A stretch of DNA of 64,000 nucleotides from NCBI GenBank assembly GCA_020055645.1, contig CM034547.1, forward strand, positions 2,790,001-2,854,000. The letters are read 5' to 3'. This DNA is from Tomocerus qinae. Lineage: Eukaryota > Arthropoda > Collembola > Entomobryomorpha > Tomoceridae. The translations under genes and the position numbers were made by a program. Of this stretch, positions 26,568-61,239 are shown one piece after another; position 1 is the stretch's first letter, and the number at the start of each line of letters is the position of its first letter. The notes under the pieces were generated by a model, which worked only from the letters and a program-made list of their open reading frames with translations, searched no databases and had not been told where the DNA came from.

Positions 26568-27015
26568 TTAGAGAACATTACAGCCCAGTTCCACTTTCCA
26601 AGAGATGTAGTCTGTGTTCGAATCGATAAAGTTTTGAAGGGACGAGTTTTTTTCCCCTTGTATTGTATGTTGGATGAATGCCATCAGATGGGCTTTGTCA
26701 TTGACGTTACGTGTAAGGGCGTCTAAGCATTCTTGACATGTCTGGAGGGCGTGGCTGTCGTGGCACAATTTGGCAAAAGCTGTATTCATCGTCAGAATTA
26801 GATTCCGGGTCAGGCGGATGTGATGAACGGGGATTCTGGTCTTCGCCTCCATTAGCCATAGTTGCCCCATGTCCACCAAAAACTGGATACTACCAGAAAT
26901 TTTTTTCGGACTTCCGCTCGCCCTTTCAACTCCCTTATAAGTCTTAGAAAACATGCTCAACTCAAATGCTGTTGCCAAATCAGAGAATTCGTCAGTCGTC
27001 AACTTGGGTCGGGTG
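26568..27015 (-). CDS. Large repeat-protein gene, terminal exon H
   Basis: Minus strand. The acceptor (TATATTTCTAG, ending just above 27015) leaves one base that completes the codon split at the end of exon G. The frame then runs 148 residues to TAA at 26568-26570. The sequence (TTDEFSDLATAFELS, IPVHHIRLTRNLILTMN, CQECLDAL) is helical and carries Cys-x2-Cys. It lacks the proline-rich module of the earlier exons, so it forms a separate C-terminal region. No known domain recognised. The phase fit with exon G is the main reason for joining it. Confidence 0.6.
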
Positions 27016-27221
27016 CTAGAAATATAAGTACGTTTATTTCAACAACCATGAGATGTCTATAATCTGCGATTCGGTTAGCAATGAGTTATCAACAGTCACC
27101 AAGTCACCAATCTTCACTCAAAATTAAGGAAAACAATAACGCAAAGCAGTAGGGGCTGACAGACAAGTCAGACAACAAATAATCATTCTAACATCTTAGT
27201 TATTGGTTATGAAAGATAATA

Positions 27222-27306
27222 GTCTCCTTTTTTTATTGGCGAACCAAGCCGACTTCTTGGACTTATGAGACTCAAAAATCCGCTAGGTTCGCCAATAAAA
27301 AAGGAA
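27222..27306. repeat. Hairpin-forming inverted repeat
   Basis: CTTTTTTTATTGGCGAACC is mirrored by GGTTCGCCAATAAAAAAGG, in the intron between exons G and H. Small MITE-like sequence. Confidence 0.6.
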
Positions 27307-27732
27307 GCATTGGCAGACATGGTATTAATTTCTTATTTCAGGCTATAGATCTATTCCACACTTCCGTTAATAAATAGAACGCCGAAAACCTGATAAAAGT
27401 GAGCCGTGACGGGCAGCCGCCGCTAAAAAATTAATCTGTAAATTTAACGGTAAACTTTCTTTACATAATTTCCGCCGTTAAAAAACGACAAAAAAGCGCG
27501 CGTGCTTAATGAATTACACGTCAAAGATACGACACTGTCGCTACTTCTTTGCAAATCAAAATAAATTCAATTGCATCCCTCGCTTAAATGGCTTACGGAA
27601 TTTGGACCAAAATTGACAGAAGTGTATTCCAACATTGTACCTACCTACCGCCCGCGCACCAATGCCAACGTTTACGAGGTCTACTCAGAAAAGAAAAAAA
27701 TGAATACGGTAGTACACACGGCTTTCATTGAC

Positions 27733-28112
27733 ATAATAGTAGTAATCAAAAGTAGAATCGAATCCGATTTGATTTAATTTTTTGCATCAAAACTTCGTCT
27801 GCTCATGTGCGACCAAGAAAATCGTATCGTTCTCATCGGAATTTTTTGAATCGTCTCATGGGACGATTTAGATTCGGATTAGAAAGATTTTGGTTGGTTG
27901 TTAAAGTGCGGAATCAGCCTAACACTTTTTAGCTAAGCTGTAGAATATCATTACTTTTGTTATTGAACTTTTGAAAAAGCCAGCCCTGGATTTAGTTGTC
28001 AAATTACTTTAATCAGAGCACTCTAAAGCTATGTTGGATTTGATCCATTTTGTTCAATTAGAATCTAAATCAAATCCGATTCGATTTTACTTTTGATTAC
28101 CACTAATAGAAA
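27733..28112. mobile_element. MITE-like inverted repeat, about 380 bp
   Basis: GTAATCAAAAGTAGAATCGA near 27741 is mirrored near 28076-28103 (TCGATTTTACTTTTGATTAC). Further mirrored AATCAAATCCGATT blocks lie inside. It is intronic to the large minus-strand gene. Confidence 0.55.
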
Positions 28113-28367
28113 AAGAAATGTAAACAAGCCATGATGACTGAAAGAGCACTAAATACGCAGCCTCACATGATACTGCTAGGAGCACTATGTAGTATACTTT
28201 CTGTGTACTAATGTTTCATTACCCAGTCTTTCCCCCCATTTTGTCGCCCAAATAAGCCACTTTGATTCCCACTGGGAAAATGGAAAGATCCCACTTAGGA
28301 TTTCCCACCTGAAACCTTGGGGTTCCACAGTCTAGTCTACAAAAAAAACAAAGGATACATTTCTTAC

Positions 28368-28966
28368 AAGATTTCATGGTCATCTAGAACGAATATATTT
28401 CCCTCGACTTTCAAAATCTTTTTTGAGATCAGTTTGTGAATTCTGTCTTTGACGGTGGAGAGGCAATAAGTCCTTAAAACAGTCGTGTAGAAAATGATGA
28501 GATCGTCGTCTCCCTCTACCCCCGCCATCACTGCTCTTTTCACAGGACAATCTCCCATCCCGATAAATTTGTCCGACCCCACTTCCTCTGATTTGGCCAT
28601 CCACCCGGTGGATACGTCTGGAGGGTGAGTCAAGGAGTTTTCTGTCTCCGACTTCTTTGCAACTGCCAAGGCACGCCCTTTTAACTTGTTGCCCGCATCT
28701 TGGACGCAGTAGATCATGAACCCAGAGTCCCCTTCAGTCCCTTTGGTGTAAGACCCCTTGACACCCTTTAGGTCCGTCTTGAAAGTCACCACAGTTCCCA
28801 CGATGTTCAGACTCCCTTTGATGCCCCCCGAGTCGGCGAAGAACGTTCCTCCTACAACCGTCTGTCGCAGTCGGTTGTAGTCCATATCCTCCACCGCAAA
28901 GTTGCACACGTTCGGAAACGACGAAGTGGACATCAAACCAGCAATTGTGATACCACTGTCCGAAAT
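28368..28966 (-). CDS. Large repeat-protein gene, exon G
   Basis: Minus strand, acceptor TATTGTGTAG, phase 0 in; strong donor GTAAGA after 28368, two bases of a codon left over. It encodes about 199 residues. The first half echoes the module of the upstream exons in weaker form: GGTFFADSGGIKGSL, then TDLKGVKGSY. Then a more ordinary sequence follows, with MIYCVQDAGNKLKGRAL, GDDDLIIFYTTVL and ending in an Ile-Leu-Lys-Val-Glu-Gly stretch. Overlapping frames (28380-28604, 28734-28982) are shadows. Joining to exon F (phase 0) and H (phase 2) fits, though F is 12 kb away and another exon could intervene. Confidence 0.6.
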
Positions 28967-29160
28967 CTACACAATATTTCATTCATGAACATTTCAGTGT
29001 GATGCGATGATGAATTCATAAGGACCGTACCTCGATGCATATCGTTTTCAGAGATAAGCCTCCAAACAGGGATACCGACTTTTCCGAAGTAAACTCCCCG
29101 GGAGTTCAATAGTTCAGTTCCACACATGCAAAACTTTATGATCGGCGATCCGGAAAGGTT
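28967..29160 (-). other. Upstream flank of exon G; possible cryptic exon
   Basis: A minus-strand frame here (GVYFGKVGIPVWRLIS) ends at a GTACGG donor-like site near 29027. Its phase (1) does not match exon G (phase 0), so I leave it out of the gene model. It could belong to an alternative transcript or be chance. Confidence 0.2.
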
Positions 29161-30390
29161 CTTAGAATGACAGCATCTCGGATCGGATTGCATCGGGTAA
29201 AAAATTTTTTGTTGGGAGGGATCGGTTTGGATCGATTACATTTAGGATTTGCTCTGGATCGAATCGGATCACTGAAATTTTTGAATGCCAGCGACTCGGT
29301 TCGGATCGCTGAAATTTTTGAATGCCAACGACTCACTGAACAATTTTTTAGAAGATCGGATAGACTCGATTATCTTTTGTATAAACTAAGATAGACATAT
29401 ACTCGTTATTAACCTATATCCCTAACAGACTGCACCCCCAACAAGTCCCCAGTTTGTCCAGTATTATAATAGTATCCAAAATAAAATACATCGATGTAAA
29501 CAATTGCAATAGAAACTTTTAATTGCATTAAATATTAAAAGTGGCGCAGAATTTACATTAAATACGTCATTCGAATTCTTATGACAAAAATAAATGACAT
29601 TTAAGCAGTTGTAGTCGGTCGCAGTTCACAGTTCTATGCTGTGAATTGATTAAAAATTTCTTTTGGAGGTTCGGCTCGATTGAGATTTGCAATATCTCTG
29701 GCTCGGATAGAATCAATTACATTTTCCCAAATCGCTGGTCGAAGTAAGGCAGAGGCTGCACAAACGACTGTCAATATAATGTCTTATTTCAACCTGCTGA
29801 CTAGGATCAGATTGGATAGCTTAAATTTTTGAATGGTAGCGACTCGGATCGGATCGCTTAATTTTTTTTGCAGGATCGGTTCAGATCGATCACATTTTGT
29901 AGTAACTTAGGCTCGAATCGGATCGCTAAAATTTTTTGAATTACAGCTACTCGGATCGGATCACTCAAAATTTTGAATGACAGCGACTCGGTTCGGATCG
30001 ATAATTTTTTTTTGTTGGGCCGGATCAGTTCGGATCGCTATAATTGTTTTAGAAGATCGGTTCGGATCGATTACATTTTGGATTTGCTCTGGATCGGATC
30101 GGATCACTCAAAATTTTGAATGACAACGACTCGGTTCGAATCGGATCGGTAATTTTTTTTGTTGGGCCGGATCAGTTCGGATCGCTAAAATTGTTTTAGA
30201 AGATCGGTTCGGATCGATTACATTTTGGATTTGCTCTGGATCGGATCGGATCGGATCACTCAAAATTTTGAATGACAACGACTTGGTTCGAATCGGATCG
30301 GTAAATTTTTTTGTTGGGCCTGATCAGTTCGGATCGCTAAAATTGTTTTAGAAGATCGGTTCGGATCGATTACATTTTGGATTTGCTCCG
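29160..30390. repeat. GATCGG-rich tandem repeat, unit about 150 bp
   Basis: Blocks of TCGGATCGGATC and GGTTCGGATCGATTACATTT recur. Between 30055 and 30390 they form at least two clear units of about 147-152 bp (start points near 30061, 30208 and 30360). Earlier units are diverged and partly rearranged, with a non-repeat gap at about 29400-29650. CpG-containing satellite within the F-G intron. Confidence 0.65.
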
Positions 30391-30464
30391 ACTATTGTCC
30401 CCACCAGTTAACTTCTTTTGTACAGAAAAGATAGAAAGCCTATCCCTTCTATACTCTAACTTAA

Positions 30465-30660
30465 GGATCCCATTATTTCATGTGCGGGAAAATTTGAAAA
30501 TTGGACCAATTACATGTAAAATAAAAGTCGCAAAGGCTTTTTAACTAATTGCTTAATTGAAAAAAATAAAGAGACAAAAAATTTTTTTAAATGTCATTTA
30601 AAAAGTGAAGTAGCTTTTTGGCGATAGCCCACTTCCTTCCCATTAGAATTCAGCCTTCCA
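30465..30660 (+). mobile_element. Rearranged copy of the 14097-14394 MITE
   Basis: GGATCCCATTATTTCATGTG, the ATAAAAGTCGCAAAGGC block and the AGCCTTCCAAAATG end are shared with 14097-14394, but the right arm is missing. Confidence 0.55.
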
Positions 30661-30674
30661 AAATGATGAATGAA

Positions 30675-30757
30675 TCGATGATCACGAAGAAATGGATGTT
30701 GATATAACCAAACCTATGGACGTATCTCTATCCTCTGACGACGACGTTGAAATCTAA
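30675..30757 (+). pseudogene. Acidic C-terminal coding relic (weak)
   Basis: A plus-strand frame reads DHEEMDVDITKPMDVSLSSD and a further acidic end, to TAA followed directly by an AATAAA-like sequence. It looks like the tail of a protein, but its upstream part is cut by the MITE relic. It could be a transposon gene remnant. Confidence 0.2.
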
Positions 30758-31545: not shown

Positions 31546-32688
31546 ATGTCTTGCTTACGAAGACTATACTGCAATTCAAGTGAATCTGATGAAGAAATTC
31601 CACGAAAAAAAGTTTACAGAGAGAGGATAAACTTCAACATTTCGAACGAATTTGAATATGAGGAAAAGTTTCGCCTCCGTTATGACGAGTTTGAATTTTT
31701 GCTATCAAAAATAGGCAACTCTATAAGACATCGAACTACCAAAAACAAAGCACTGTCTCCTAAACAGTAACTTTTGACAACTTTGCACTGGTTGGGCAAT
31801 GGATCACGATATCACGCCGCTGCTGATATGCACGGTATGCATAAATCAACTGTATGTAGGACCGTCAAAAGGGTAACTAAAGCCATCAACGATCACTTGT
31901 TCACATTTACGGAGAAATGGCCGGATGACTGTTCGCAACTGGCGACCGAATTCATGAGAAAAGGTGGTTTTCCATTTGTCTGTGGCTGCGTCGATGGAAC
32001 GTTAATTAATGTAATTTCTCCACAAGTCAACGAAGAACAGTTTGTAGATAGACATGGTGATCACTGTATCAATGCAATGATGGTTTGTGGACCGGATTTA
32101 ACTTTCTACTTTCTTTCCGCGCGCTGGCCAGGGTCTACTCATGATGCCCGCGTAATGAGAAACTCTACTCTAGAAGAGAAATTTGAAGCATGGGTGGAGA
32201 CCTTTTCCAAATGCAGTACTTCTTGGTAAACATTTGTATGATGTTATTATTGGTAATATGGGATTAAAGATTTCATTATTCGCCTGTAATTTAAATTCCT
32301 AATCATGTTATATTAAATATTATATTCTTCAGGTGATTCTGCATATGGTTTAAAAGACTGGTTGATTACTCCTTACCACAATAACCCTGCTGATCCTGCG
32401 GAAAGAAGATTCAATGCTTGCCACAAAAGCTGTAGACGACTCATAGAATGTGCTTATGGAGTCTTAAAAAAACGATTTCCATGTCTTAGCTTGTTGCGAG
32501 TCAATCCTTCTTATGCGGCTAATATTATTTCTGCGTGTGCGATTATTCATAATATTGCAACAAAATCCGATTTCGACTGGCCAGAAGGTGAAAACGATGA
32601 TGATAATATTGAAATAGGAGTTGAAAATCGTAATGAAAACGCTAGAGGTGTAGCTAGAGTAAGGGAACTTCTGGCATTCTTTACTTAA
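31546..32688 (+). pseudogene. PIF/Harbinger transposase, one stop and one frameshift
   Basis: HARBI1-like DDE nuclease starting MSCLRRLY. An in-frame TAA at 31768-31770 splits the N-terminal part, after which the frame continues unchanged into the helix-turn-helix (MHGMHKSTVCRTVKRV), GCVDGTLINV (first Asp), WPGSTHDARV (second Asp). Near 32205 an extra T in a T-run shifts frame just before NAVLL. A 107-bp intron (32226-32332, GTAAAC to TTCAG) interrupts the Leu-Leu-Gly-Asp-Ser-Ala-Tyr motif. The last exon has CRRLIECAYGVLKKRF (Glu) and ends with an acidic tail. All three catalytic acids remain, so this is a recently inactivated copy. The convergent partner ends 120 bp away. Confidence 0.85.
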
Positions 32689-33585: not shown

Positions 33586-33948
33586 TGGTTAAGTATTCGA
33601 AATTTGGAATTATGACACGTAAGATTTACCACAAAAAGGTAGACGAATATTACCGATGAGATAAATAATTAAAGTCAGTGATATTCACAGGCCACAGCCT
33701 AAGAAACAGTGTTTAATGCGCGCATGTGCAACTTTTTTACTTTTCACTTTGTGGTTGCAAAGTGATTAGTGAGGTCGAAATTTTGGTGCAACGATTTTAC
33801 TTTTCACTTTGCAACTTTTGCAAAATGAAAAGCAAAAGTGACAAGTGAAAAGGGTAGCTATGGTACAACTGACCCCTGGACCCAATTTTCCCCCAATTTG
33901 AGTTCAGTCACTGATACCGACTGTTGCATAATTAATTCATTAAGTTAC

Positions 33949-34218
33949 ATGTCGAAATGCGCTATCAAAGGATGTCCCAACGATCGGAGACTAAAAGGAA
34001 ATCTTACAAACCTTTACTCTTTGCATAGATTACCTAATGATTTGGAAATTCGCAAACAATGGCTCTCCATTTGTGGCTTAGAGGAAAATAGTTCCGGAAA
34101 AGAATGTCGACGTATATGTAATCGACATTTCCCGAGTCAAAACTTTAAGACAGACAAAAGAGGTAGAAAAATACTTAAGTCAAGAGCTACACCGGCATTA
34201 TTTTTGAAAGGTAGCTAA
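33949..34218 (+). pseudogene. THAP domain exon of a P-like transposase
   Basis: Begins MSKCAIKGC (Cys-x4-Cys), then LHRLPND, KQWLSICG (Trp), CRRICNRHF (Cys, His) and RATPALF, the position of the AVPTIF-type box. This is a complete C2CH THAP finger of about 80 residues. A GTAGCT donor-like site follows the final Lys. The next coding block, only about 60 bases on, is the C-terminal part of a P-superfamily transposase, so the catalytic core has been deleted. Confidence 0.75.
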
Positions 34219-34261
34219 TAATTATTACTTACGTATATAGATATGTAATTTCTATGGACAG

Positions 34262-37864: not shown

Positions 37865-38717
37865 GTGTCCGGCGAGGTGGCCCCATGGAAACTGGCCCCC
37901 CGGACACCTGGCCCCATGGCAAGTGGCCCTATGGATAGCTGGCACCAAGTGGGAGGAGATTCCGTGTATAGTCCGAGCATATCGATGAACTCGTTAACTT
38001 CCATCAATCCCTTTCCCAATCAATGTACTGGCACTCAGAAGGGCCATCACATACATACTACGACCGTCTCCCATGCTAAAGCCCCATGCTAAGTCACATA
38101 TTAAATCCCCATGATAAGTCCCATGTTAAATCCCCTTGCTAAGACCCATGTTAAATCCCCATGCTAAGACCCATGTTAAATCCCCATGCTAAGACCCATG
38201 TTAAATCCCCATGCTAAGTCCCAATGGTTAGGATAGGTTAGGATAGGTTAGGTTAGGTTAGGACAGGGTAGGTTAGGACTTAGCATGGGGATTTAACATG
38301 GGTCTTAGCATGGGGATTTAACATGGGTCTTAGCATGGGGATTTAACATGGGTCTTAGCATGGCGATTTAACATGGGTCTTAGGATGGGACTTAGCAAGG
38401 GATTTAACAAGGGACTTAGCATGGGGATTTAACATGGGTCTTAGCATGGGGATTTAACATGGGACTTATCATGGGGATTTAATATGTGACTTAGCATGGG
38501 GCTTTAGCATGGGAGACGGTCGTAGTATGTATGTGATGGCCCTTCTGAGTGCCAGTACATTGATTGGGAAAGGGATTGATGGAAGTTAACGAGTTCATCG
38601 ATATGCTCGGACTATACACGGAATCTCCTCCCACTTGGTGCCAGCTATCCATAGGGCCACTTGCCATGGGGCCAGGTGTCCGGGGGCCAGTTTCCATGGG
38701 GCCACCTCGCCTAACAC
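37865..38717. mobile_element. Giant palindrome with an 11-bp (one mismatch) target duplication
   Basis: Ends GTGT, two variable bases, then GGCGAGGTGGCCCCATGG in inverted orientation. The arms are nearly identical for about 250 bp (37871-38098 against 38485-38711). CGACGAAGCCC (37854-37864) and CGACGAAGCTC (38718-38728) flank it directly. Inner parts are inverted arrays of a CCCATGTTAAATCCCCATG unit of about 25 bp, and the loop is TTAGG-like repeats (38226-38278). An 88-residue frame appears on each arm only because of the symmetry. MULE/foldback type is inferred from the duplication length. Confidence 0.8.
38226..38278 (+). repeat. TTAGG-like telomeric-type repeats in the palindrome loop
   Basis: About ten units of GGTTAGGTTAGG/GGATAGGTTAGG, imperfect, exactly at the centre of the 37865-38717 palindrome. 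TTAGG is the common arthropod telomere motif. Here it is interstitial and part of a mobile element. Confidence 0.7.
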
Positions 38718-41155: not shown

Positions 41156-41779
41156 GAATTGTCCGTCTAGACCGCTGTCTGGAATGAAAATGTTTTCTCC
41201 GTCGGTGCCATTGAAGAAAGTGCCTCTCTGTTTCTGTTGGGGCTGGGATGAGGATCTTTCGTACTCCGTCTGCTGGTTGGAATCAAACACTTGGAAGTTG
41301 CACGCAGTGTTGTAGCTGAAACACGCTGTCGTTGGTTTGGGAAACCAGAATCCTGCATATGAATTCTCGTTGGGGGTGAAAAGGATACTCGGGAATGAAA
41401 TAGAAACCCGTCCGGGAATCCCTGCTCGGTTTTTAAATAATTTGTCAGGATATAAATAAGGGGGAACATCTGGATAGAAGGTGCCCGTACCGGGTATGGT
41501 TAATTCTGAGGGGTTGTCTGGTACAAAATTCGATGGTCCATCTTCAAAGGGGTAGAAAGATCCGTGAACTTTGACTCCAGTAATAAAGATGAAGTAGCCG
41601 ATCGTTCCCAAGAAAGGGACGAATATGTTGGACGTGTCGATAGGGTAGTAAATCCCGTTTACTGGACCCGGCGGCATCTGCACGTTTTTTGAAGGATCAA
41701 TCTTAGCATTAGGGTTCCTTGCTGGTGCAGATGCCTGGGGCGCTTCTGGATCGTCCTCAAATGAAACTTGGTTCCTAAC
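41156..41779 (-). CDS. Large repeat-protein gene, exon F
   Basis: Minus strand. The acceptor (ATCATTATTAAG) opens phase 0 and continues 208 codons to a strong GTAAGA donor after 41156, again phase 0. It begins with an acidic, Ala/Pro-rich linker (SFEDDPEAPQASAPA). The module then returns (VNGIYYP, VKVHGSFYPFED, SNFVPDNP, GTGTFYPDVPP). It ends in a Cys-containing, Gln/Ser-rich stretch and FIPDSGLDGQF. A second acceptor five bases downstream would give phase 2, which would not match exon E's donor. The 100-residue overlapping frame is a shadow. Secretion is likely from composition but unproven. Confidence 0.65.
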
Positions 41780-43172: not shown

Positions 43173-43695
43173 CACATTTTTGCACACCTTCTTTGGTTCC
43201 GGTTTAAAAGGTATAGATGCTCCGGGCTTCTTATTGTTGCAATAGAGTATGCCATGAATCGGAGTCTGGTCTGGAGGATCTGGGACAATTGTTCCTCCAA
43301 TAGGAGTCGGAGTGGGTTTGACAGCTGCTGGATGGTCCGGCACAAAGTTATCCGGCCAATAGACTCCCCTGATTTTGTTAGAGGGGTTTTTGTCCGGGTG
43401 GAAGGTACAGGGTCGTTTCTTTGACTGCTTAGCAGGATTCGAGTCTGGGACAAAAACAGCGGAGTCATCTTCTGGTTCAACGTCATTGGTGGGATCGTCG
43501 GGCACGAACGTCGCAGGTTGGTCAGTTCCTGACGGCTGAAGTTGGCCAAACGTTGGAGTTGGGTCTTCTGGGGGTTCGGGGATGAAAACGCCGTGTAAAG
43601 GGGTATCCGCAAGAGGGGAATCCGGGTAAAATGTGTTAGGCGGGTAAAATGATCCATGCACTTTGTTGTTTTTTGTATCTGTGTCCGGGTAAAAC
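43173..43695 (-). CDS. Large repeat-protein gene, exon E
   Basis: Minus strand. The acceptor (ATAATATTTACAG) supplies one base that completes the Trp codon begun in exon D, and the exon ends before GTAATA at phase 0. It encodes 174 residues. Module cores: FYPDTDTKNNKVHGSFYPP, VFIPEPPEDPTP, ATFVPDDPTND, CTFHPDKNPSNKIRGVYWP, NFVPDHP, GTIVPDPPDQTPIHGIL, then a Lys-rich end with Cys. The alternative frame of similar length lacks these motifs and is a shadow. It keeps the order of core motifs seen in exon D, so the two arose from one repeat series. Confidence 0.75.
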
Positions 43696-45797: not shown

Positions 45798-47340
45798 TAG
45801 AAATCATAGAATAATGTTCACTATGAAAATCAACAGAAAATCATAGAATAATGTTCACTATGAAAATAAACAGATAATCATAGAATAATGTTCACTATGA
45901 AAATCAACAGAAAATCATAGAATAATGTTCACTATGAAAATCAACAGAAAATCATAGAAAATTTGTTCACCATGAAAATCAACAGAAAATCATAGAATAA
46001 TGTTCACTATGAAAATCAACAGAAAATCATAGAATAATGTTCACTATGAAAATCAACAGAAAATCATAGAATAATGTTCACTATGAAAATCAACAGAAAA
46101 TCATAGAATAATGTTCACTATGAAAATCAACAGAAAATCATAGAATAATGTTCACTATGAAAATCAACAGAAAATCATAGAATAATGTTCACTATGAAAA
46201 TCAACAGAAAATCATAGAATAATGTTCACTATGAAAATCAACAGAAAATCATAGAATAATGTTCACTATGAAAATCAACAGAAAATCATAGAATAATGTT
46301 CACTATGAAAATCAACAGAAAATCATAGAATAATGTTCACTATGAAAATCAACAGAAAATCATAGAATAATGTTCACTATGAAAATCAACAGAAAATCAT
46401 AGAATAATGTTCACTATGAAAATCAACAGAAAATCATAGAATAATGTTCACTATGAAAATCAACAGAAAATCATAGAATAATGTTCACTATGAAAATCAA
46501 CAGAAAATCATAGAATAATGTTCACTATGAAAATCAACAGAAAATCATAGAATAATGTTCACTATGAAAATCAACAGAAAATCATAGAATAATGTTCACT
46601 ATGAAAATCAACAGAAAATTAAAGTAGATAACTGTTGACTGAAAATAAACAGAAAATCAAAATTGATTAAGAATGAGTATCACAATAAACTAAAAAGTCA
46701 AATTTGAATAATATTGAGTATCAAAATAAACAAAAGACTCAAAATTAATTAATATTGAGTATCAAAATAAGCAAAAAATCAAAATTAGTTAACATTGAGT
46801 CTAAAAGTCAAAAGAAAATCAAAATTGATTAATATTGGGTATAAAAATCAAAAGAAAATCAAAATTGATTAATATTGGGTATAAAAATCAAAAGAAAATC
46901 AAAATCGGTTAATATTGACTGCCATAATGAAAGGCAATTCGAAAAATGTAAATTTGACTATTAATTTACATATAAATGCGAAATAGATTTATTTCCGTTC
47001 TATAATAGGTATTTTTCGGTTTTATTTACTTTATTTTAAAATCTTAAATTCTGTTAAATATTGTATACTATCTTCCTAACAATTCATAGGAAACACAATT
47101 GAACTTTTAATGTCCATTCAATGCCATATTTTCATTTTGACCATTAAAATGAAGACATAGTGAGCGCGCGGCATCTCAGCAACCTATGGACCAATGTGGA
47201 GCATTTTCAATAGGCTTTGCCTCAGGGTCATAGGCAATGTTTTTGCCAAGTTTAGTTGAAATCCATCAATGTCTTCAAAAGTTATCGTGTAAACGGACGG
47301 ACGGACTGTGCGATTCTATAAGCTGCCTTTTCAGGCGAGA
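45798..47340 (+). repeat. Satellite-plus-tail element, homogeneous copy
   Basis: About 22 nearly perfect 37-bp units (CATAGAATAATGTTCACTAT then GAAAATCAACAGAAAAT) at 45798-46620. A degenerate zone follows to about 46920, then a tail of about 420 bp matching 12640-13055, including GAGCGCGCGGCATCTCAG and GGACGGACGGACTGTGCG. The array has expanded recently here compared with the 12-kb copy. Confidence 0.75.
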
Positions 47341-48436: not shown

Positions 48437-49945
48437 CAAGTAGGTTTCCCTCCAGGGGGATGATTGGGGTTGCCAGATGTAGGAGCTTTGCTAGGACCCT
48501 TAACGGGGGCTTTCGGAGTAAAGGTTCCCACAGGTGATGAAGGGTTGGCACCCAAGTTTCCAATAATAGGTGTAGGATCCTCTGGAGGATCCAGCACGAT
48601 TCTACCAGCTCCCGGTTTTAAATTGTTTGGTTCGTCGGGAGTGAAAGTATTTTCTTTAGGATTGTAAACACCCCTTATGGGGAAATAGGGATTATCTTCC
48701 ATAAAAAAGGTTGCTGGGGACCCTGGCGTTGGTGTATTTGGAAGTTTCTCCTTAGGGGTGAATTTCATACCGTCCGGTCCCGGTTTTACAGATCCGGGAA
48801 TCGGGGTTTGATTGCTTGGTGGATCTAGAACGAGACGGCCAGGGCCAGATGGATTTTCTGACGGATCATCGGGCTGGAACTCTAGCGGGTAATTTGACGA
48901 AGGCGGGTAATACGTTCCTCTAACCGGTTTGTTTGGGCTTTTATCCGGGTAGAAGACTCCCGGTTGACCGCCCGGCTTTCTTGGAATGAACTGCATCGGC
49001 TGTCCAGGTTTCTTGGGTGGGTTAAGTGTCCCGGGCATAGGGGTATCATCACTTGGCGGGTCTTTGACAATTCTCCCGGGACTGGGTCCAGTGATAACAT
49101 TTCTGGAGTCTGTAGGGTTGTCCGGGGTGAAGGTATTAGAGCCAGGGTTCAGTTTTCCTTTCACCGGATTACCCGGATTTTTATCTGGATAAAAGTAACC
49201 CGACTGTCCCTCAGGATCATCAGGTTCAGTCTCGGATGGTAAGAAAATCGTCGGTTGCCCAGGGTTTCGGGGTGGGTAAAGTGTTCCGGGAATCCCAGCT
49301 GGATCCGACGGAGATACTATTTTCCCGGGAACCGGTCTAGTGACATCCCCGGGATTGTCCGGTTGGAAATTACTTGTGTCTTTATCGAAATTTCCTTTAA
49401 TGGGTTTGTTAGGGCTTTTGTCGGGGATAAAAGTAACAGGGTTTTTCTGCTTAGGACTTCCGGGAGACTTCGGTGTGAACTTGCAAATTTGACCCGGACT
49501 TGGGGACGGATAGAACGTACCAGGCGTCGGGTTTGGGTCTTGAATATCGTCGAGTACAAGAATTCCAAGTGTGGGTTTGTTGTCTAATTTGGAGGCTGGA
49601 TCCCTGGGATCGTTAGGAGTAAACGCCCCGACATCCGGGTCAAAGTATCCGGGAATCTGGTTTTTGGGATTTTCATCCGGGAAAAATTTTCCTGGTTTTC
49701 CTTTCGGTTTTTTTAGGGTACTAGCTGGTCCTGTACCATGAGGGGGGCTACTATTCGGAGAATCTGAAATTGGGGTGAAAATTGGAGTGTCATTTGGATT
49801 CTCGAAGACTTCCATTGTACCCGGGAGAGGAGTTCGGTCCAACGGTGGGTCTAGAACAAACGAGCCCGGAATAGTGTCTGGTGTAAATTTAAAGTCTTGT
49901 GGGTTGTCAGGTTGGAACTGAACAGGCGCGTTTGGACTCATCACT
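48437..49945 (-). CDS. Large repeat-protein gene, exon D (main repeat block)
   Basis: Minus strand, 503 residues. Acceptor TTTGTTACAG; phase 2 in (one base closes a Leu codon from exon C) and phase 2 out at a GTATAA donor. It is made of about five and a half units of roughly 90-100 residues. Each has a core GYFYPDKNPGNPVKGKL, then TFTPDNP, then a GRIVxDPPxDxTPIPGT element and a Pro/Gly linker (PPKKPGQPMQFIP). Pro, Gly, Asp, Asn and Thr dominate; there is no cysteine after the first third, no membrane segment and no coiled coil. A frame open to 48304 past the donor loses the motif and is intron. The composition suggests an extended extracellular structural protein; that is inference. Confidence 0.8.
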
Positions 49946-51120: not shown

Positions 51121-52540
51121 AGGAACAGTAGTTGTACTCTTGAACTGAAACCCCGGGGCGCGAGTCAGTTATCCTAGTATAACTACCATGGAAGGGTGTA
51201 CATATACATATTGTACTAGTACAATGGCGCCGTTGTACGGGAGGGAACGGTTATACTACGACATGTTTAAAATAATCTCGATTATAATAATCCATTTTAT
51301 AACCACCGTTTTAGATAGAGCAATAAAGGAGAGAACCGCCTAAGACTGGAGTAATTGGCCTAGCCCCATTCAGTTTTGAAATTGTCCCATGAAAATCAAA
51401 TGGGACATGGGTGGGCCCAACCCGTGGCAGATCCCCATGGAAAAATGAAAAAATGAAAAGTGGGTGGGAAAGCTCGCCAATTGACGTCATTGGCGAGTGT
51501 GTATTTAAATTGAGATCCCCAAGTGGGGGAAATTAGGGATCGGCTGTAGTCATGTAAATTTTCCACACATTTTCACTTGTTCCGAACCCCCAATAAATCG
51601 AATAATCTGCCATTCCTTTTCTATAATATTATATTCTATATTCCTTGGGTGGGCCTGAGTCACTGAATAAAAGTTACTAAAAATTGTCTTAGTAACTGAC
51701 ATGAGTGAGACAATAGTCCTAAAAAGATCCTCCTTTATGGTATCCCTCCGCTAATGACCCAAGGTGATATAGGCAACAAAGGTGAGGGAGGAGGTGCCTA
51801 GGTGATAATACCTATGCCTATCTGTACTTATTTAAAACGATTGAAAATCAATTTGCTCTTTCGAGCGCGAAAACCTACTACCTAAAAATTATCATAAATT
51901 AAAATTCGTTCATTTCCTCTCTGTCAGAGTTAAAATTCTGTCAGAGGTTGCTGGTAATAACATTTTCATCAAGATTTTCACCGAATTTTTTAAAAAAAAA
52001 AGTGCTTCTGGGTGGTACGTGGGTTCCTTTGTTCTATATTAATGTAATATTGTTTATTAGACAATAATGCATTAATATTTAAGAAAGTAGCTAGGGTTTG
52101 GTATGGTGTAGAGCAATCTACACTTGTTTTCGCCCATCCACAATTATAATAAGTTGTGTTTCGCGTTATACTGCTAGGGGTACTTTCATTACGGGCAGTG
52201 CTACCACTTACAGTGCTAACGCAATGACCTAATGGTAAAGAAATAACTGGTACGGTTTAATTGTCATTGTGTCCACATCTGTGGGCCAGACTGATTAGGG
52301 TACCAGGAATTTGATACCATTGCGTTTGAACTGTAAGTCGCCTGTCTGTTTTGGGTACCCCCTAGGGAACTTTTTGGGTTTTGTTTTACTGGGCGACGAA
52401 AAATTGAACACAATAATAAATACTAAAGTGACCACATTTTTCCACATTAAAAGCAACCACATTTTAAATTCGCCAAATCAGTAAAAATGTTATTACCAGC
52501 AACAAGTTTACCAATTTAAAAAATGTGATCAGATATTTCA
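51121..52540. other. Intronic spacer; empty-site paralogue at 51280-51335
   Basis: The reverse complement of 51280-51335 (GGCGGTTCTCTCCTTTATTG, then CTCTATCTAAAACGG) matches the two flanks of the palindromic insertion at 56602-56848. A CTCGCC/GGCGAG hairpin with GACGTC lies at 51472-51497. No gene seen. Confidence 0.45.
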
Positions 52541-52571
52541 AAAATCAGTGTGCCTATATTTTTCAATAAAA

Positions 52572-54961
52572 ATGCCTGGAGCTCAAAAAAATTGTTGCGT
52601 GTGTTATCGAAGGATTGAAACTGAAGGAAGGAGTGTTACTGATACCGTATGGCTGCGAGTTGAAAAATATCTAACATTTCTAAGAATAAGCTCTGGCGTC
52701 GATAAAGTTGTAAATAGATATGGTCATATTTGTAAAAACTGTCATTTGGCCCTAAAAAACAGTCAATTTCGAAGAATCAAGCCGTTAAATAAGCCGAAAG
52801 TTGCGAAATCTACAAATAGGGAAGAAATGGAACCAATGGACTTTGAAATGAATTCGGAGCATGATAGCGACGTGTCTTCGTTGCCAAACGATTCGATGGA
52901 CTTCTCAACTCAATCCTCATTAACGACTGTGGCAGATAGTTATCAATCTAATTTCTCCGTGGACTCACATGCTTCTACTTTGAGCTTTAATTCTCAATCT
53001 TCAATTAGTTCTGCAGGATTCAGTGGCCATTCTTCGAACCAAGCCTTAAGTTGTACCAATACTAGTGTTATTTCTAACATTAATGAACCGTCTGAACATG
53101 AAACATCGACTACAATAAGTTCGATATCTGATGCTACCAAGTTTAAGCTCCCGAGATTAAAGGAAGCTATTGAAGTTAATGTCCCATCTTGTACTAGTAC
53201 TATGAGCAAGTGTTTCCTTTGTGGGAATAAAAACAAGGAGGGCAGATTACGCATTCCTAAAAGAGCCATAGCTTCTGTTTGGTTTCACAAAAAGATACTG
53301 ATACCAGTAAACAACCGATGCTGTGCAAATCACCTGAACGATAACGGATACTTTAACGATGATGCAGAAAAGAAAGTGATAGCCTCCCAAACTTCAACCT
53401 TGCTGACTGGTGACGACGTGAAAGTTATTCTGTCGTCGTTTAATGCTAAAGTTTTCTCTACAGTAAACACAGTAACCTTTGATGAACATTCTCAATACAC
53501 AACTGAGGACTATCAACTGCTTACTGGTTTATCCAAAACAGACTTTGAACACACGTTTAAACTGATTTCTTCAGATCTTCGTGATAGTTGCAACCGCACT
53601 AAAAGGAATGCTCTTGGCCTTTTCCTTATGAAACTGAAAACTAATTTATCCCAAGATGTTCTCTCAATACTTTTCGGCATGAATTGTCAACAGCGTGTGA
53701 GCGATACATTTGAAAGTGTTAGGTTGGCATTAGAAAAACATTTTGTTCCACGTTATCTTGGCTATCACCATATTACCAGAGAAGAAGCAAAACAACACCA
53801 GTCATCTTTTGCGCATACTCTTTTTGGAGCCGATGAAAGTTCAATGTGCCTCATTGCTGATGGCACATATTTATACATTGAACAGTTATCGGACCATGAC
53901 GATCAGAAGAAGACCTATTCTAACCATAAGCACGGAAATCTGGTGAAGCCAATGATGGTCATCCATCCTAAGGGCTACATACAAGACGCAGATGGGCTTT
54001 ACTTTGCAGATAATGGAAACAATGACTCAAACATATTGAAAGCTATGCTACTAGATACTGATGGAATTTCCTCCTTCCTGCGGCCTAATGATTACTTTTT
54101 ACTAGACCGTGGTTTCCGTGATGTCATTCCAGACCTTGTTGAAAAAGGATATAAAACCTTTTCGCCAAGTTGCTTGCAGAAAAAACAGCCACAGTTTACG
54201 ACTAGTCAAGCAAATGAAACCAGAAAAGTCACCATGATTCGTTGGACAGTGGAAGCTAAAAATGGACATGCTAAAAGATTCAAATTTTTAAAAGAAAAGA
54301 TAGAAGCCACATATCTACCAAAATTGCCGTCTATATTTCGAATTATATGTGGTTTTCTCAACGCCTATTCTGCTCCATTGTTTAAGGATGATCAAGAACA
54401 CATGGAAATGGCCAACAATGCCCTTCTAAGGACTCAACAGGAAAACAAACTGCAGATCCGAGTGGAAAGTTTGAATTTGGAACGGAGAAGGAGCAATTTA
54501 GTACCAGCATCTAAGGATACTCTTTTAAACTTTCCTGTTTTGACTGAAAAAGATATCAAAAATATAACTATTGGAAAGTACCAAAGAAAAATGCTCCTTT
54601 GTACACAAGACGGCACTTGAAGAAAGATTCCAGTTACTGCTTTTGGACTTTTGAAGAACCAGAGCTGGCTGATATGATTCGAGTTAACATGGAATCCAGA
54701 TTTGGGCAAGGAATTCACATGGTTTGGATAACATTTGACAGCTCTAAGGCCGGAGAAAATGCAATAACAGGATGGTACTGCCGCTGTAAAAATGGTTCCC
54801 GAACAGTGGGCTGCTGTAGTCACATAACATCAGTGATATGGTACTTAGGATTTGCTCGTCATCAAGAAATAGACTTAGTTTCTAATAAGCGGAGATTGGC
54901 TGAAAATATACTCGATGCTGCTAAGTTATTGCAAAACCACCTCGAGGAGAGTCAAGAATGA
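52572..54961 (+). pseudogene. DDE transposase with zinc fingers and C-terminal SWIM motif, one frameshift
   Basis: The N-terminus has Cys-x2-Cys pairs (NCCVCYR, ICKNC) and a second finger-like region (KCFLCGNK to CCANHLNDNGYF). A Ser-rich linker separates them. A helix-turn-helix domain (GLSKTDFEHTFKL to FGMNCQQRVSDTF) leads into a DDE fold: CLIADGTYLYIEQ (Asp), YSNHKHGNLVKPM, YFLLDRGFRD (Asp) and RWTVEAKNGHAKRF (Glu). A one-base loss near 54595 moves the last 120 residues to another frame. These contain WYCRCKNGSRTVGCCSHI, a SWIM-type Cys-x-Cys...Cys-x-His. The related IS5/Harbinger-like fold is inferred; the superfamily is not certain. TIRs were not located. It lies in intron C-D of the large gene, on the opposite strand. 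Confidence 0.7.
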
Positions 54962-55309
54962 ATCGCACCAGAAAATCTGAATTTTAAAGGGCAGAGTTGT
55001 TATTTCAGTTATATTTAGGGCAGTGATAAAGTTATTTGAGTTCGAGTGATAATAAATAGTATACACAGATATCTTATCAATGTCTTCGCTTAATCAGTGC
55101 CATTAATTGTTATGTTTAAATTGAAAAGGTCATTCGTTAAATATGTAATTATGGAACAGTGTTAAAGAGAAAATAAAGAGAGAAAAATTAGTTTATACAG
55201 AAATATGCAGGTACCATTGTATTTGTTTCAATTCATTGTAAGAAATAGTTAGCTTAATACTACAACTGAATACATTATTACCTGATTTATTTTAATTACT
55301 TCGAAGATA

Positions 55310-55965
55310 CTAGAATTTATTTAAAAGTACTAGAATTTATTTAAAAGTACTAGAATTTATTTAAAAGTACTAGAATTTATTTAAAAGTACTAGAATTTAT
55401 TTAAAAGTACTAGAATTTATTTAAAAGTACTAGAATTTATTTAAAAGTACTAGAATTTATTTAAAAGTACTAGAATTTATTTAAAAGTACTAGAATTTAT
55501 TTAAAAGTACTAGAATTTATTTAAAAGTACTAGAATTTATTTAAAAGTACTAGAATTTATTTAAAAGTACTAGAATTTATTTAAAAGTACTAGAATTTAT
55601 TTAAAAGTACTAGAATTTATTTAAAAGTACTAGAATTTATTTACAAGTACTAGAATTTATTTAAAAGTACTAGAATTTATTTAAAAGTACTTGAATTTAT
55701 TTAAAAGTACTAGAATTTATTTAAAAGTACTAGAATTTATTTAAAAGTACTAGAATTTATTTAAAAGTACTAGAATTTATTTAAAAGTACTAGAATTTAT
55801 TTAAAAGTACTAGAATTTATTTAAAAGTACTAGAATTTATTTAAAAGTACTAGAATTTATTTAAAAGTACTAGAATTTATTTAAAAGTACTAGAATTTAT
55901 TTAAAAGTACTAGAATTTATTTAAAAGTACTAGAATTTATTTAAAAGTAATAGAATTTATTGTAA
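55310..55965. repeat. 20-bp tandem satellite, about 32 units
   Basis: The unit TAGAATTTATTTAAAAGTAC is repeated almost perfectly with two or three single-base variants. Such homogeneity points to recent expansion. Confidence 0.9.
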
Positions 55966-55969
55966 TATT

Positions 55970-56590: not shown

Positions 56591-56601
56591 CTTATGCGGT
56601 T

Positions 56602-56848: not shown

Positions 56849-57344
56849 ATTGCTCTATCTAAAACGGTGGTTATAAAATAGATTTTGAAACAAACAAATA
56901 TTTGTATGTCCAATACGCATGATCATTGCATACCTTTCGAAATTGAGTCCTGCTCTGGGGGCTACTAGTATTATTAATATTATAATCGTAGACTTGAAAA
57001 ATTTTCGTGTCTATAATATTTCCATCTATGTATGTACGGGTGGTAAGGTGTTCCCAAAAGCAAAATGCGTACGTGTTCATATTTTACATGAAAATAAACT
57101 ACGCTTTGTGTTAATATTAATTAGCATAATTTGAAAATAAACCAAAATGTTGAACGCGTATAGTAAATATTTCGAAATTCAATATCCAATACACATGATT
57201 GTCGCCTACCTTTCGAAATTAAGTCATGTATGCTGCGAGCTACTAGTATTTATATAATATTATATGGGAAGTAACGCAAGATTTCCTTGCAACTTTGTCG
57301 CCAAAATGCCAAAAATTCAAGATGCCTATCCCAGATATGCTTAC

Positions 57345-57537
57345 AAGAGTCCGTGAACTCGGTTTCTAGGGTTGGTTTGAGGGTAGAACCATCCAGGGGA
57401 TCCTGGTTGTTTGTTAGAAATCTTCGGTGAGGGACTTCCTCGATTTTTATCCGGGATTACCCTAATTGGCAAGTCTTGTTTTTGGTGTTTGGGCAGTTTG
57501 TCCTTCTCATCCGTTTTGAATAGCACAGGATATGGAC
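57345..57537 (-). CDS. Large repeat-protein gene, exon C
   Basis: Minus strand, acceptor AAATGTTTTCTAG, phase 1 in; donor GTAAGC after 57345, phase 2 out. It encodes about 64 residues: a Lys-rich linker (FKTDEKDKLPKHQKQDLP), then RVIPDKNRGSPSPK, then GWFYPQTNPRNRVHG, the first half of a module. The second half (PVQFQPDNP) opens exon D, so one module is split by the intron. The short frame seen before is this exon plus a stop created by the donor. Confidence 0.7.
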
Positions 57538-57539
57538 CT

Positions 57540-58020
57540 AGAAAACATTTAGAAATAGAAATGCCTTTCTGTTTACAAATGGTCCAGTTTTCAACTAAGC
57601 CTTCAGAATATTAGTCGAGCTAGCATTAGCTTATTTATTGGCATTTTCTTGCAATTCTTTTTATTTTTTGTTAGCGTTACCTTTGCATTTTATAGTAAAA
57701 CTATAAGTTAATTTTTTTAAAGTAAATTTTAAGCCTTTCTAAAAACCTACAGCAAGCCGTAACAGAAGCTCGCCTAGTAAAGGGGACCCTGTGCACATTT
57801 TTGCATGGTAGAATAATAGCAGAAGTAGTTAGAAATTTTGATTACTAGTGTAGAGGGCTGACTTCGATATCGCTTGCAGGTAGAGTCCAAAACCAATGAT
57901 GCCAAACTAGGATGCTTCAAAATGTAGTGTGTACTTTCGTGAACTGAATTTTGTGTAAAAACACGGTTTTATTTATGCTAAAATAATAGGCACACATACA
58001 CATAAAATACACAATAAACA
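57540..58020. other. Intronic; dispersed repeat at 57745-57830
   Basis: The phrase AAACCTACAGCAAGCCGTAA with GTAACAGAAGCT and CACATTTTTG recurs at about 58978-59045. No gene. Confidence 0.4.
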
Positions 58021-58255
58021 CAAGATTCGTCTATATGGTAACAGGTTAGTCGGTCCGGTAGTTGACAAATTAAAAATTCACTTTTGTCACTTCTGGAGGA
58101 CAAATCCTATAATTTGTCCTCCACTGCTTGGATAGGATAAAGGACTGCCATTGCTAACTACCATGGTGATTACAGGCAGGTAAATATGGATGTGAAAAAA
58201 GTGAACTTTTAATTTGCCAACTCCCGCACCAACTAACCTGTTTAGACGAATCTTG
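58021..58255. mobile_element. 235-bp TIR element with a 9-bp target duplication
   Basis: Ends CAAGATTCGTCTA...AGACGAATCTTG. The perfect direct repeat CAATAAACA lies at 58012-58020 and 58256-58264. Arms of about 65 bp share AACAGGTTAGT and AAATTAAAAATTCACTTTT. An inner palindrome around GGACAAATCCTATAATTTGTCC marks the centre. A 9-bp duplication fits MULE-type elements. Confidence 0.75.
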
Positions 58256-58621
58256 CAATAAACAATTAATAGGTAAATTACAGGTAAGTAATTTCGGTAG
58301 CACTATTTTATAATTAATTGGGCAAATTAATTATAATCGGAGACCTCACACAAACGAACGTGCTTCTTCAATGGGGTTCCGCGTGCTACTGACTGAGAAA
58401 TGCTAGGCCAAAATCTTACCTTTATGTACTACATCTATAATAGGTAGGTAGGTAGGGCTAACCACTATAGATAGGTAGGTACTAGACAACATGACCACGT
58501 AGGGCTACACACTAATAGATAGGTAGGTACTAGACTTACATGCTATGCTAAAACTATTCTGCTCAACACTAAGATAGGTATAGGAGGCTGGCTGTGGGAA
58601 AGAAAGTAGGCTTTACTCCTT

Positions 58622-58677
<56 letters not shown>

Positions 58678-58722
58678 AGCGCATGAATGGATTAACGAGA
58701 TTCCCACTGTCCCTCTCTACTA
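58622..58722 (+). rRNA. 28S rRNA gene fragment (about 100 bp, dispersed)
   Basis: The segment from CGGGAGTAACTATGACTCTC through TTAAGGTAGCCAAATGCC, TTAGTGAAGCGCATGAATGG and CGAGATTCCCACTGTCCCT matches the highly conserved 28S large-subunit region that holds the R2 retrotransposon target. From memory of that region there are two or three differences. The flanks are not rDNA, so it is an isolated fragment, not a functional rRNA gene. Confidence 0.75.
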
Positions 58723-58786
58723 CATGTAGAAGTGTAGGGACGAGTGAAAAGCTCAATCACAGGGAAAAGACCAGACTATTTCGAAC

Positions 58787-58890
58787 TTACACGTCTTGTC
58801 TGCCTGTAGAGATCCCAAACTCAGACAAGGGGCAAGACGAGACGGTTTCGAACTTACAAGTCTTGTCTCCCCATGTAGATACCAAAATGC
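58787..58890. repeat. Short tandem duplication after the 28S fragment
   Basis: TTTCGAACTTACACGTCTTGTC and TTTCGAACTTACAAGTCTTGT form two adjacent units of about 70 bp, each followed by a TGTAGA(G/T)A(T/C) CC(A/C)A phrase. Upstream (58440-58535), microsatellite-like GGTAGGTAGG and TAGATAGGTAGGTACTAGAC repeats occur. Confidence 0.5.
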
Positions 58891-59109
58891 AATAACGAGG
58901 TTTCTCCAACTAGCTCTATTTTGATTGCTAAAATGAATAGTTTAAAATGGGCTATATTTGGCTATCAAAATAAAAAAAACCTACGGCAAGCCGTAACAGA
59001 AGCTGGCTTGAGTGTAGGGGAACATGTACACATTTTTGGTGGAATAATAATAGATTTATATTTATTAGTAAAATGTAATTCAAATTATATCAATATTTAT
59101 AATTATTGA

Positions 59110-60600
59110 AAAAATCTTCAAAATCAACAGAAAATCAAAATAGATTAATGTTGACTATCAAAATCAATAGAAAATCAAAATTCATTAATATTGAGTATCA
59201 ACATCAGAAGAAAATCTTATCAACTACTAATAATACTATGTCAATATAGTACTATTTATTCAGAGGAGTTTACTCCGATGTATGCGTTTACACTTTCTGT
59301 CTGTCTGTCTGTCCGTCCTTATCCGCAATAACTTTCGAACGGTTTAAGTTAGACAATTCAAATTTTCAGGATACATCATTAAGGTAAAATGTAGGTCTGA
59401 GTTCGTATATGAGCAGGATCGGTCACATCCCCTGACTGGGGGAAAGGGTTGAAAATTTCAATTGGCGATAACTTTGGAACGGTTATACCTAAACTACTCA
59501 AATTTTCAGGCACAATATTGAGGTAAAATGTAGGTCTGAGTTCGTATATGAGCAGGATCGGTCACATCCCCTGACTGGGGGAAGGGTTGAAAATTTCAAT
59601 TGGCGATAACTTTGGAACGGTTATACCTAAACTACTCAAATAAATTTCAATTGGTGTTACTTTGGAACGCGAAACTCCTCTGCTGTTATACCCCGTTTTG
59701 CAAATGTTTATTGTTATATTAGAATAGTATCTAAGTAGTATCTAGTGTGTCATGCGTTGGAAAGCAGTGACCAGTTCTCGACTGTGCCTACTGATATCGA
59801 TCTGATGACTGATGTATTGAACTATTGATTGTACTCATTTGACACTTTAATAAAGCAATATTATTATTATTATTATTATCAAAATTGATTAATATTATAT
59901 TCAATATCAAAAATAAATCAAAATTGATTAATATTCAATATTAAAAGTAAATCAAAATTGATTAATATTCAATATTAAAAGTAAATCAAAATTGATTAAT
60001 ATTCAATATCAAAAGTAAATCAAAATTGATTAATAATTACGTATCAAAACGAAAAGAAAGTCTAAATTGATTAATATAATCAAAATGAAAAGAAATCAAA
60101 AGTGATTAATATTGACTATCAAAATGAAAGAATCAAAATTGTTTATTATTATCAAAATGAAAGAATCAAAATTGATTATTATTATCAAAATGAAAGAATC
60201 AAAATTGATTAATATTAAGTATAAAATCAATTCAAAATCGGTTAATATTAAGTATAAAATCAATTCAAAATCGGTTAATATTGACTATCAAAATGAAAGG
60301 ATATTAAAAAATCTAAATTTAACTATAAAATTAAATATAAATCCAAAATGGATTTATTTCCGTACTCTAATATTATTCGATTTTATTTGCTTTATTATAA
60401 AATCTCAAATTTGGTAGAAGCGGAGTGAAATATTTCATACTATTTACTAACAATTTATAGTAAACACCATTGAACTTTTTCATGACCCGTTTTTCTACTT
60501 TGACTATCAAAATGAAGACAAAGTAGCGCGCGGTATCTCACCAACCTATGGACCCATTTATAACAAATCAATGTAAGTCCCATAAAAATCGAAGTTGTCA
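59110..60600 (+). repeat. Satellite-plus-tail element, decayed and split copy
   Basis: Units of AAATCAAAATTGATTAATATT type at 59110-59220 and 59880-60290, then a tail (60300-60600) with GGATTTATTTCCGT and TAGCGCGCGGTATCTCA as in the other two copies. Between the two array parts lies 59265-59700, which holds a direct duplication of about 137 bp (two copies of TGGCGATAACTTTGGAACGG with GTCTGAGTTCGTATATGAGC), a different dispersed repeat. Confidence 0.6.
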
Positions 60601-60699
60601 GGTATAAAACATTTTTAACCTGCATTTTGATATTCTCTTGTGGTTTCTATGCAGGCTCGATGAGCGTCTTTAAAGTAAACAAATAATGTCATTTCTAAC

Positions 60700-60996
60700 C
60701 TTGAGGCGGGATCTTCATTTTTCCATTTAAAACTACGCCCTTCGGAGCGTCTGGAATAAATTTCCCAGGGCATGATTGTTCCCGTGTGGGTGGAGATGTC
60801 CCATCAGGAAAAAATTTAGAATATTTTTTATTCTTTATTGGAAAGTAGATGCCCCGGATGGGGGGGTTGGTGTCACTTTCGAATGTCCCTGGAAATCCTC
60901 CCCCGTTTGGGATGATTTCAAATGTCGGTGCTTTCCCAGGATTTTGTGGCGTGAATTTCCCGTGCACAGGGTAGCCAGGAAGATATTTGTCAGGAT
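60700..60996 (-). CDS. Large repeat-protein gene, exon B
   Basis: Minus strand. The acceptor (AATTTATATGCAG) and donor (GTTAGA) both leave phase 1, so the exon is symmetrical. About 99 residues: PDKYLPGYPVHGKFTPQNPGK, then GGFPGTFESDTNPPIRGIYF, a Lys-rich linker, SKFFPDGTSPPT, CPGKFIPDAPKGVVLNGKM. It carries two module-like units and one Cys. A frame extending upstream past the acceptor lacks the motif and is intron. Exon A is only 135 bp away. Confidence 0.7.
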
Positions 60997-61131
60997 CTGC
61001 ATATAAATTATAATGTCCTATTGTTTGAGCCAAGCACTGCAGTTGTGGATAAAGCCATAATATTTTGAAATTGATATATCTCATTAGTACTCTCCATGTT
61101 GTTATATAATACTATATATTGACTACTTTAC

Positions 61132-61239
61132 TGAATATTCCTTTGGTGGTTTCCAGTGGCTGGAATGTTCCGAGATATCTGTCGTCATCTAAGTACAATT
61201 GACCAGGGTCGTTTTGATCTTTCTGAGGAACAAATACTC
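61132..61239 (-). CDS. Large repeat-protein gene, exon A (most upstream found)
   Basis: Minus strand, too short for an obvious open frame. Acceptor TACTTGTTTAG; donor GTAAAG; phase 1 in and out. It encodes about 36 residues: GVFVPQKDQNDPGQLYLDDD, then YLGTFQPLETTKGIF, in the style of the downstream module. The splice to exon B restores an Asn codon before PDKYLPG. Because it starts with an acceptor, at least one more exon lies upstream, in the last 2.7 kb or beyond the window. Confidence 0.6.

Follow-up and report, generated by a model that had tools for sequence, protein, structure and literature searches.

The divergence of their repeats makes silk-like proteins difficult to detect by homology, and their families are therefore followed mainly via the end domains. 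For spidroins, the part of the published account drawn on here describes hyper-variable repeats flanked by N- and C-terminal domains that are non-repetitive and shared among paralogues (PMC2928236). A second described system is the slime of velvet worms, whose proteins ES_P1 and ES_P2 are, in the sections of the report used here, long and secreted, with 17% and 16% proline and repeats of ~30 and 20 residues; they are reported to be largely disordered, with a Gly/Ser-rich low-complexity N-terminus (PMC9218773). Here, a locus of the collembolan Tomocerus qinae is compared with these systems. It consists of a chain of eight exons (A to H) on the minus strand of a 64,000-nucleotide stretch of contig CM034547.1 (assembly GCA_020055645.1; C2:2790001-2854000, hereafter the window), analysed together with the genome (334 Mb in 115 contigs).

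We hold it likely, on the evidence of sequence, that exons A–H form the 3′ portion of a gene that spans ~86 kb and encodes a large structural protein, secreted and belonging to a silk-like multi-gene family. The initial annotation had described a 35-kb gene of eight exons and had suspected a new extracellular structural or secreted protein. That suspicion is supported; the size was too small, further N-terminal and module exons extending the span to ~86 kb, and the multi-gene family, with its conserved ends and variable repeats, had been missed.

Exon chain and extent of the gene

The eight exons were rebuilt from the sequence and reproduce the proposed chain, including its phases, its terminal stop and its total of 4,301 bases. 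This total is obtained with the donor first chosen for exon E, which stretches the exon to 43173; with a nearer donor it is 4,286 bases, and the joined A–H frame is then open for 1,427 codons up to the stop. All seven junctions are GT-AG and keep reading phase, as had been claimed, with start–end phases of 1-1, 1-1, 1-2, 2-2, 2-0, 0-0 and 0-2 for A to G, H running from phase 2 to the stop. Exon A (61132..61239) is internal, and its joining to B (60700..60996), which carries degenerate proline-rich half-units, restores the module reading GIF/NPDKYLPGYPVHG (the slash marks the junction). Joining exon C (57345..57537) to D (48437..49945) likewise restores GWFYPQTNPRNRVHGLL/VMSPNAPVQFQPDNP. Exon D, with 1,509 bases, holds six modules of ~80 amino acids (aa), the first one incomplete within the exon; exon E (43188..43695) adds two more, and exon F (41156..41779) consists of degenerate modules. 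The first half of exon G (28368..28966) comprises two degenerate half-units and its second half the first segment of a C-terminal domain, the remainder of which is encoded by the terminal exon H (26568..27015) together with the stop. An AATAAA polyadenylation-like signal, a consensus match only, lies 89 bases past the stop (26473..26478, minus strand).

The open runs holding exons D (551 codons) and F (235 codons) exceed the longest run in 60 order-2 Markov sequences of 64 kb (at most 206 codons), and the frames of E (195), G (200) and H (156 codons) alone fall inside the Markov range. Codon usage was rejected as a coding test, its bias being too small to discriminate. Rfam and tRNA scans of the window gave no match. 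The junctions were assessed by ranking the module score among open GT-AG pairings within 120 bases. A/B ranked first of 28 and C/D first of 13; the ranks of the others were 15th of 19 (B/C), 26th of 49 (D/E), 40th of 43 (E/F), 11th of 22 (F/G) and 5th of 31 (G/H). For these five junctions, the test is uninformative or unfavourable because pairings that skip non-motif sequence are rewarded. F/G and G/H are supported by relatives rather than by the motif test: across F/G, a paralogue at C1:127.17 Mb aligns in one frame (tblastn E-value 0.017), and for G/H the paralogous loci are considered below.

The chain lacks its N-terminus, as the initial annotation had recognized in pointing upstream of 61239 for a signal peptide. 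The gene starts 49 kb past the window and spans ~86.4 kb from its ATG to the stop at 26568. Two exons of an N-terminal domain lie there on the same strand (C2:2902668-2903006 and C2:2901295-2901615) and are matched by the N-terminal domain of a sister gene (tblastn E-values 6e-5 and 0.002). The frame begins at C2:2903006 with a hydrophobic stretch, MYFIILTSIFVAEIAS, and opens MYFIILTSIFVAEIASDPYEG behind a TATA-like box; this start is, as read by eye, a putative signal peptide. Between the N-terminal exons and the window, module frames occur on the same strand, with E-values of 3e-5 (~70.5 kb), 4e-4 (67.2 kb), 1e-3 (65.6 kb) and 0.05 (103.6 kb), in window-based coordinates and with a profile free of any upstream frame. 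Joined in phase 2, the 67.2- and 65.6-kb exons give FPASF-I-PDDPDSF, which corresponds to the module's FxPDDP (read from the splice list). When some upstream units are included in the profile, the E-values fall to 4e-16 (75.3 kb) and 1e-16 (70.5 kb); these scores are circular because the profile then holds units from some of those very frames. A–H are only the 3′ part of the gene because the N-terminal domain and more module exons lie upstream on the same strand: as read from the sequence, it has, beyond A–H, two N-terminal exons and at least three independently supported module exons (at 65.6, 67.2 and 70.5 kb), plus weaker ones.

The proline-rich module

The module of ~80 residues is built of two half-units of the type GxFYPDxxPxxPIxGxYxPxxxxFxPDxP. 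In exon D, they read GxFYPDxxPxxPVxGxLxP..FxPDxP and GPGxIVxDPPxDxTPIPGTLxPPxxPGQPxxFxPxxP. The motif had been described in exons A to F and, weakly, in G. A profile of 15 units, all from exons D and E, scores its training exons at E-values of 8e-125 (D frame) and 2e-49 (E frame). Among the untrained frames, F (2e-5) and B (7e-4) are recovered; C, at 0.012, is the next best frame but falls short of the HMMER inclusion threshold, A scores 0.33 and G is missed (37). With a 20-unit profile, none of whose training units comes from G, exon G is recognized as a degenerate module, its score being reached by 0 of 1,000 shuffles.

Codon differences among eight aligned modules (1,924 codon pairs) number 1,334 at position 3, 840 at position 1 and 772 at position 2, an excess at the third position that is as expected for coding sequence under selection. 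In addition, 498 of the 766 identical residues in this alignment are spelled by different codons. Both features point to the modules as old coding repeats. Exons A–F contain 19.3% proline, and the module region is acidic and nearly cysteine-free (isoelectric point 5.9; 6 Cys in 1,079 aa). Modelling by AlphaFold2 with the eight window modules as alignment gave six beta strands (mean predicted local distance difference test, pLDDT, 82.9; predicted template modelling score, pTM, 0.69), and the module is predicted to fold as six short beta strands.

The module had not been placed in any known family, and this holds: searches of Pfam (frames B and D–H), NCBIfam and PHROGs (D–H) and PDB yielded no credible match, exons A and C not being scanned singly. 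A Pfam FAT match in the window frames is below the FAT cut-off and was rejected. Relatives were also absent from viral contigs and prokaryote genomes, searched with one query each.

Conserved ends and variable middles

The match counts for both end domains are lower bounds. Exon H has at least 23 non-self matches in the genome, at 29–43% identity, bringing the C-terminal domain to at least 24 matches with self included. The G part of this domain carries GW..., FxGxGxC and LRTxCL, and an alignment of seven rows displays invariant cysteines, a tryptophan and glycines. Seven paralogous loci were read, two of them near copies of each other; in all seven, an exon resembling the end of G lies at most 1.5 kb 5′ of the H match, and the G-end segment of a paralogue, used as a tblastn query, matches all seven. 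When the genome was searched with G itself, the non-self matches (3/3) each had a same-strand H match, from which they were separated by 0.36–0.45 kb on its 5′ side. With a profile from six paralogues, the window excluded, the G part of the window gene reaches 42.6 bits, against 6.6 for the best of 1,000 shuffles, and the H part reaches 114.6 bits, against 10.9; only the G part of this comparison is independent, because the paralogues were found through H.

The N-terminal domain has at least 13 further matches at at least 10 other loci, and each of the 10 has a same-strand C-terminal match downstream, at 1.5 to 44 kb (chance ~0.003 each). Among the matches listed, 11 of the 24 C-terminal ones are paired with an N-terminal match, self included. 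No credible Pfam match was found for the seven C-terminal domain sequences or for three N-terminal ones (one a fragment), and the profiles of the two domains matched nothing in PDB. Weak Pfam matches in the end domains, namely Lipin_mid (E-value 0.00099), 2-thiouracil desulfurase (0.0021) and others, concern one member each and were rejected.

The sequences enclosed by these ends vary widely among the sister genes. The gene at C1:113.85 Mb (L028/L029) begins with a hydrophobic start and the N-terminal domain; its 846-aa frame contains 31.8% Gly, 20.1% Asn, 13.0% Ala and 10.4% Ser, and Ala/Asn-rich repeats of the form SNAIASGGGSA follow. In the C-terminal-domain gene at C1:3.42-3.43 Mb (L030/L023), six frames match a module profile made from the window only (best E-value 3e-10); on the other eight loci of that search, the same profile had no match at an E-value of 0.01. 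Three stretches of L030 (1735-2310, 2873-3493 and 4044-4580) are near-identical tandem proline-rich module exons, with a longer related copy at 5162-6652, which looks like recent exon duplication. At C1:68.74 Mb (L035), one open frame of 1,294 aa unites the second half of the N-terminal domain with modules (33.8 bits vs 7.2 for the best of 500 shuffles) and a silk-like ASANAGASASGSSGSGG tail. The gene at C1:114.00 Mb is compact, with both ends and a short middle. Two family genes, at C1:68.73 Mb (L025) and C1:68.32 Mb (L027), are almost identical and lie ~0.41 Mb apart. These loci show an architecture of common ends and variable middles, and the middles, as translated, range over proline-rich modules, Gly/Ala/Asn/Ser silk-like repeats, or both. 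Proline-rich modules and silk-like repeats are assigned to one family because the same ends enclose both.

Competing readings and comparison with known systems

Several observations weigh against a silk-like family and against the extent given to the window gene. The exons read in this gene hold no Gly/Ala silk repeats, and exon H lacks the module motif (with the 20-unit profile, its score is equalled by 389 of 1,000 shuffles). Used as a tblastn query, the window's own G segment matches four of the seven paralogous loci at E-values <1e-5 and one at 0.07, two being unmatched. Thirteen of the 24 C-terminal matches, among those listed, have no paired N-terminal match, and the third module-rich locus, a compact gene at C1:127.170-127.176 Mb (L009), shows neither end domain within the 50-kb stretch analysed. 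Upstream of the window, frames at 75.3, 81.9, 83.0 and 101.0 kb have E-values of 0.77 to 4.4, no better than those of chance matches on the plus strand, and support is weak for the exons placed between 75 and 104 kb. Finally, three modules modelled from a single sequence gave a pTM of 0.35, with pLDDT values of 71.7 to 38.9 for the five models; stacking of the modules lacks support because this model is poor and the models are widely spread.

The main rival, an unlikely one in our estimate, is a secreted matrix or coat family rather than a fibre, i.e. a cuticle, eggshell, mucus or feeding-sheath protein family with variable low-complexity middles and conserved ends. A secretion-like start, proline-rich beta modules, conserved cysteines and a multi-gene family would suit any extracellular coat, and the acidic, nearly cysteine-free module region is also in its favour. 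However, the Gly/Ala/Asn/Ser repeats of the sister genes resemble silk more than known cuticle domains, in our judgement, and no chitin-binding or cuticle Pfam domain was found in window frames B and D–H or in the end domains scanned.

Very improbable is a division into two genes, where A–F would be separate from G–H, G would stop at its own in-frame TAA (28364-28366) and the phase match at F/G or G/H would be luck. The stop lies right behind the G donor, H is free of the motif, the 15-unit profile misses G, codon usage does not discriminate and the motif test fails to pick F/G or G/H. Nevertheless, the first half of G is a module by the 20-unit profile, a paralogue spans F/G in one frame, copies of G and H occur together at all three G matches and all seven H paralogues read, and a C-terminal match lies downstream at all ten N-terminal loci. 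The assignment of A–H to one gene in the initial annotation is therefore upheld, G carrying the module pattern and co-occurring with H elsewhere. Equally improbable is that the locus is a pseudogene, the decayed copy of such a gene enlarged by transposons: the introns hold several transposon-like frames, but the eight exons are open, with compatible phases, GT-AG throughout and no internal stop. The least credible reading of all takes these genes for true members of a known spidroin or fibroin family. They share the plan of two conserved ends around variable repeats, but the seven C-terminal and three N-terminal domain sequences have no spidroin or fibroin match in Pfam, neither end-domain profile matches PDB, and Spidroin_MaSp (PF11260) has no match in the genome, a search whose control was empty too.

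Mobile and repeated sequences occur in and around the gene. DDE_Tnp_4 transposase frames (Pfam) lie on the plus strand at 52485-54961 and 31771-32688, both inside introns of the gene, and at 20324-21034; the first is followed by a zinc-finger-like frame, so labelled by eye. THAP-domain frames (Pfam) at 23318-23791 and 33829-34218 (plus strand) and, by eye, a near copy at 24332-24709 (minus strand) are probably remains of THAP-type transposons. Long tandem arrays, with units of 20 to ~40 bp and longer periods too, occupy 6562-7398, 45801-46918, 55308-55961 and 62562-62949, and some are open in several frames. At 37878-38705, mirrored TGGCCCCATGG and CATGTTAAATCCCCATGCTAAG repeats surround a GGTTA-rich core, an inverted duplication as judged by eye; the GGTTA-rich array recalls TTAGG telomere repeats, which is not decisive. 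Frames at 14801-15403 and 15847-16290 (plus strand) are clear tandem relatives (score 153 vs a shuffle mean of 32) without a Pfam match, reflecting gene or exon duplication. Kinship of H with these tandem exons was rejected, the alignments being like those of shuffles (350/500 and 175/500 reach the score); the similarity of G to the second is borderline (19/500) and is not used as evidence. The odorant-receptor family is nearly missing from the genome, with one weak insect match that holds a stop; this is not decisive either.

On the reading of A–H as part of a silk-like gene, the product comprises a putative signal peptide, a conserved N-terminal domain, proline-rich beta modules arranged in a long chain, and a conserved C-terminal domain with invariant cysteines. 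It would be exported, stored and then assembled into a fibre, glue or coat. By analogy with spidroins, the terminal domains may govern solubility and association, with the cysteines linking chains, and the rigid, proline-punctuated chain of beta modules, long and regularly spaced, may set the length and stiffness of the material. The family is probably a silk-like or fibrous secreted one independent of spidroins. Evenly balanced, in our judgement, is the further proposal that it evolved independently towards a spidroin-convergent plan with unrelated end domains, one branch acquiring a new folded six-strand beta module, and that the combination of modules and silk repeats in L035 makes the step from modular to low-complexity sequence readable in one genome. 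The plan itself is already known. Judged against Pfam and PDB and, for frames D–H, NCBIfam and PHROGs, animal proteomes lying outside this comparison, the module and both end domains appear to be new, and no description of them was found in the open-access literature searched. Through their end domains, as many as two dozen loci in one genome are linked, with repeats going from glycine-rich to proline-rich modules. The module pattern also makes it possible to follow a gene whose exons are scattered over 86 kb among transposon-bearing introns. The compact module (~80 residues, almost no cysteine, predicted to fold) is a candidate for expression and structure solving.

Three systems may be set beside this family. 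With the velvet-worm proteins ES_P1 and ES_P2, compared by description only and as far as the sections used describe them, it shares a high proline content and the character of long structural proteins with repeats, secreted there and putatively so here; it differs in its module, for which a fold is predicted, and in its start, a conserved domain. In PDB, the module profile gives summed scores to the Kelch-repeat designs SAKe; each stretch on its own contributes ~3 bits (independent E-value ~1,000), and the Kelch resemblance was rejected as tiny scores summed over near-identical copies.

Spidroins, within the part of their description used here, are likewise large structural proteins of a multi-gene family, in which variable repeats are enclosed by conserved ends. 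The ends of the window gene differ in having no credible Pfam or PDB match, and the gene has many introns over its 86-kb span. The spidroin repeat motif is poly-Ala/Gly; in contrast, the main repeat here is a proline-rich beta module, predicted to be folded. The protein is therefore classed as probably working like a silk protein rather than as a spidroin member, because neither end is a spidroin domain by Pfam and PDB (for the N-terminal end, the comparison is the matching of this family's domain to these databases). As such, it may offer a second case, beside spidroins, for testing fibre assembly driven by end domains.

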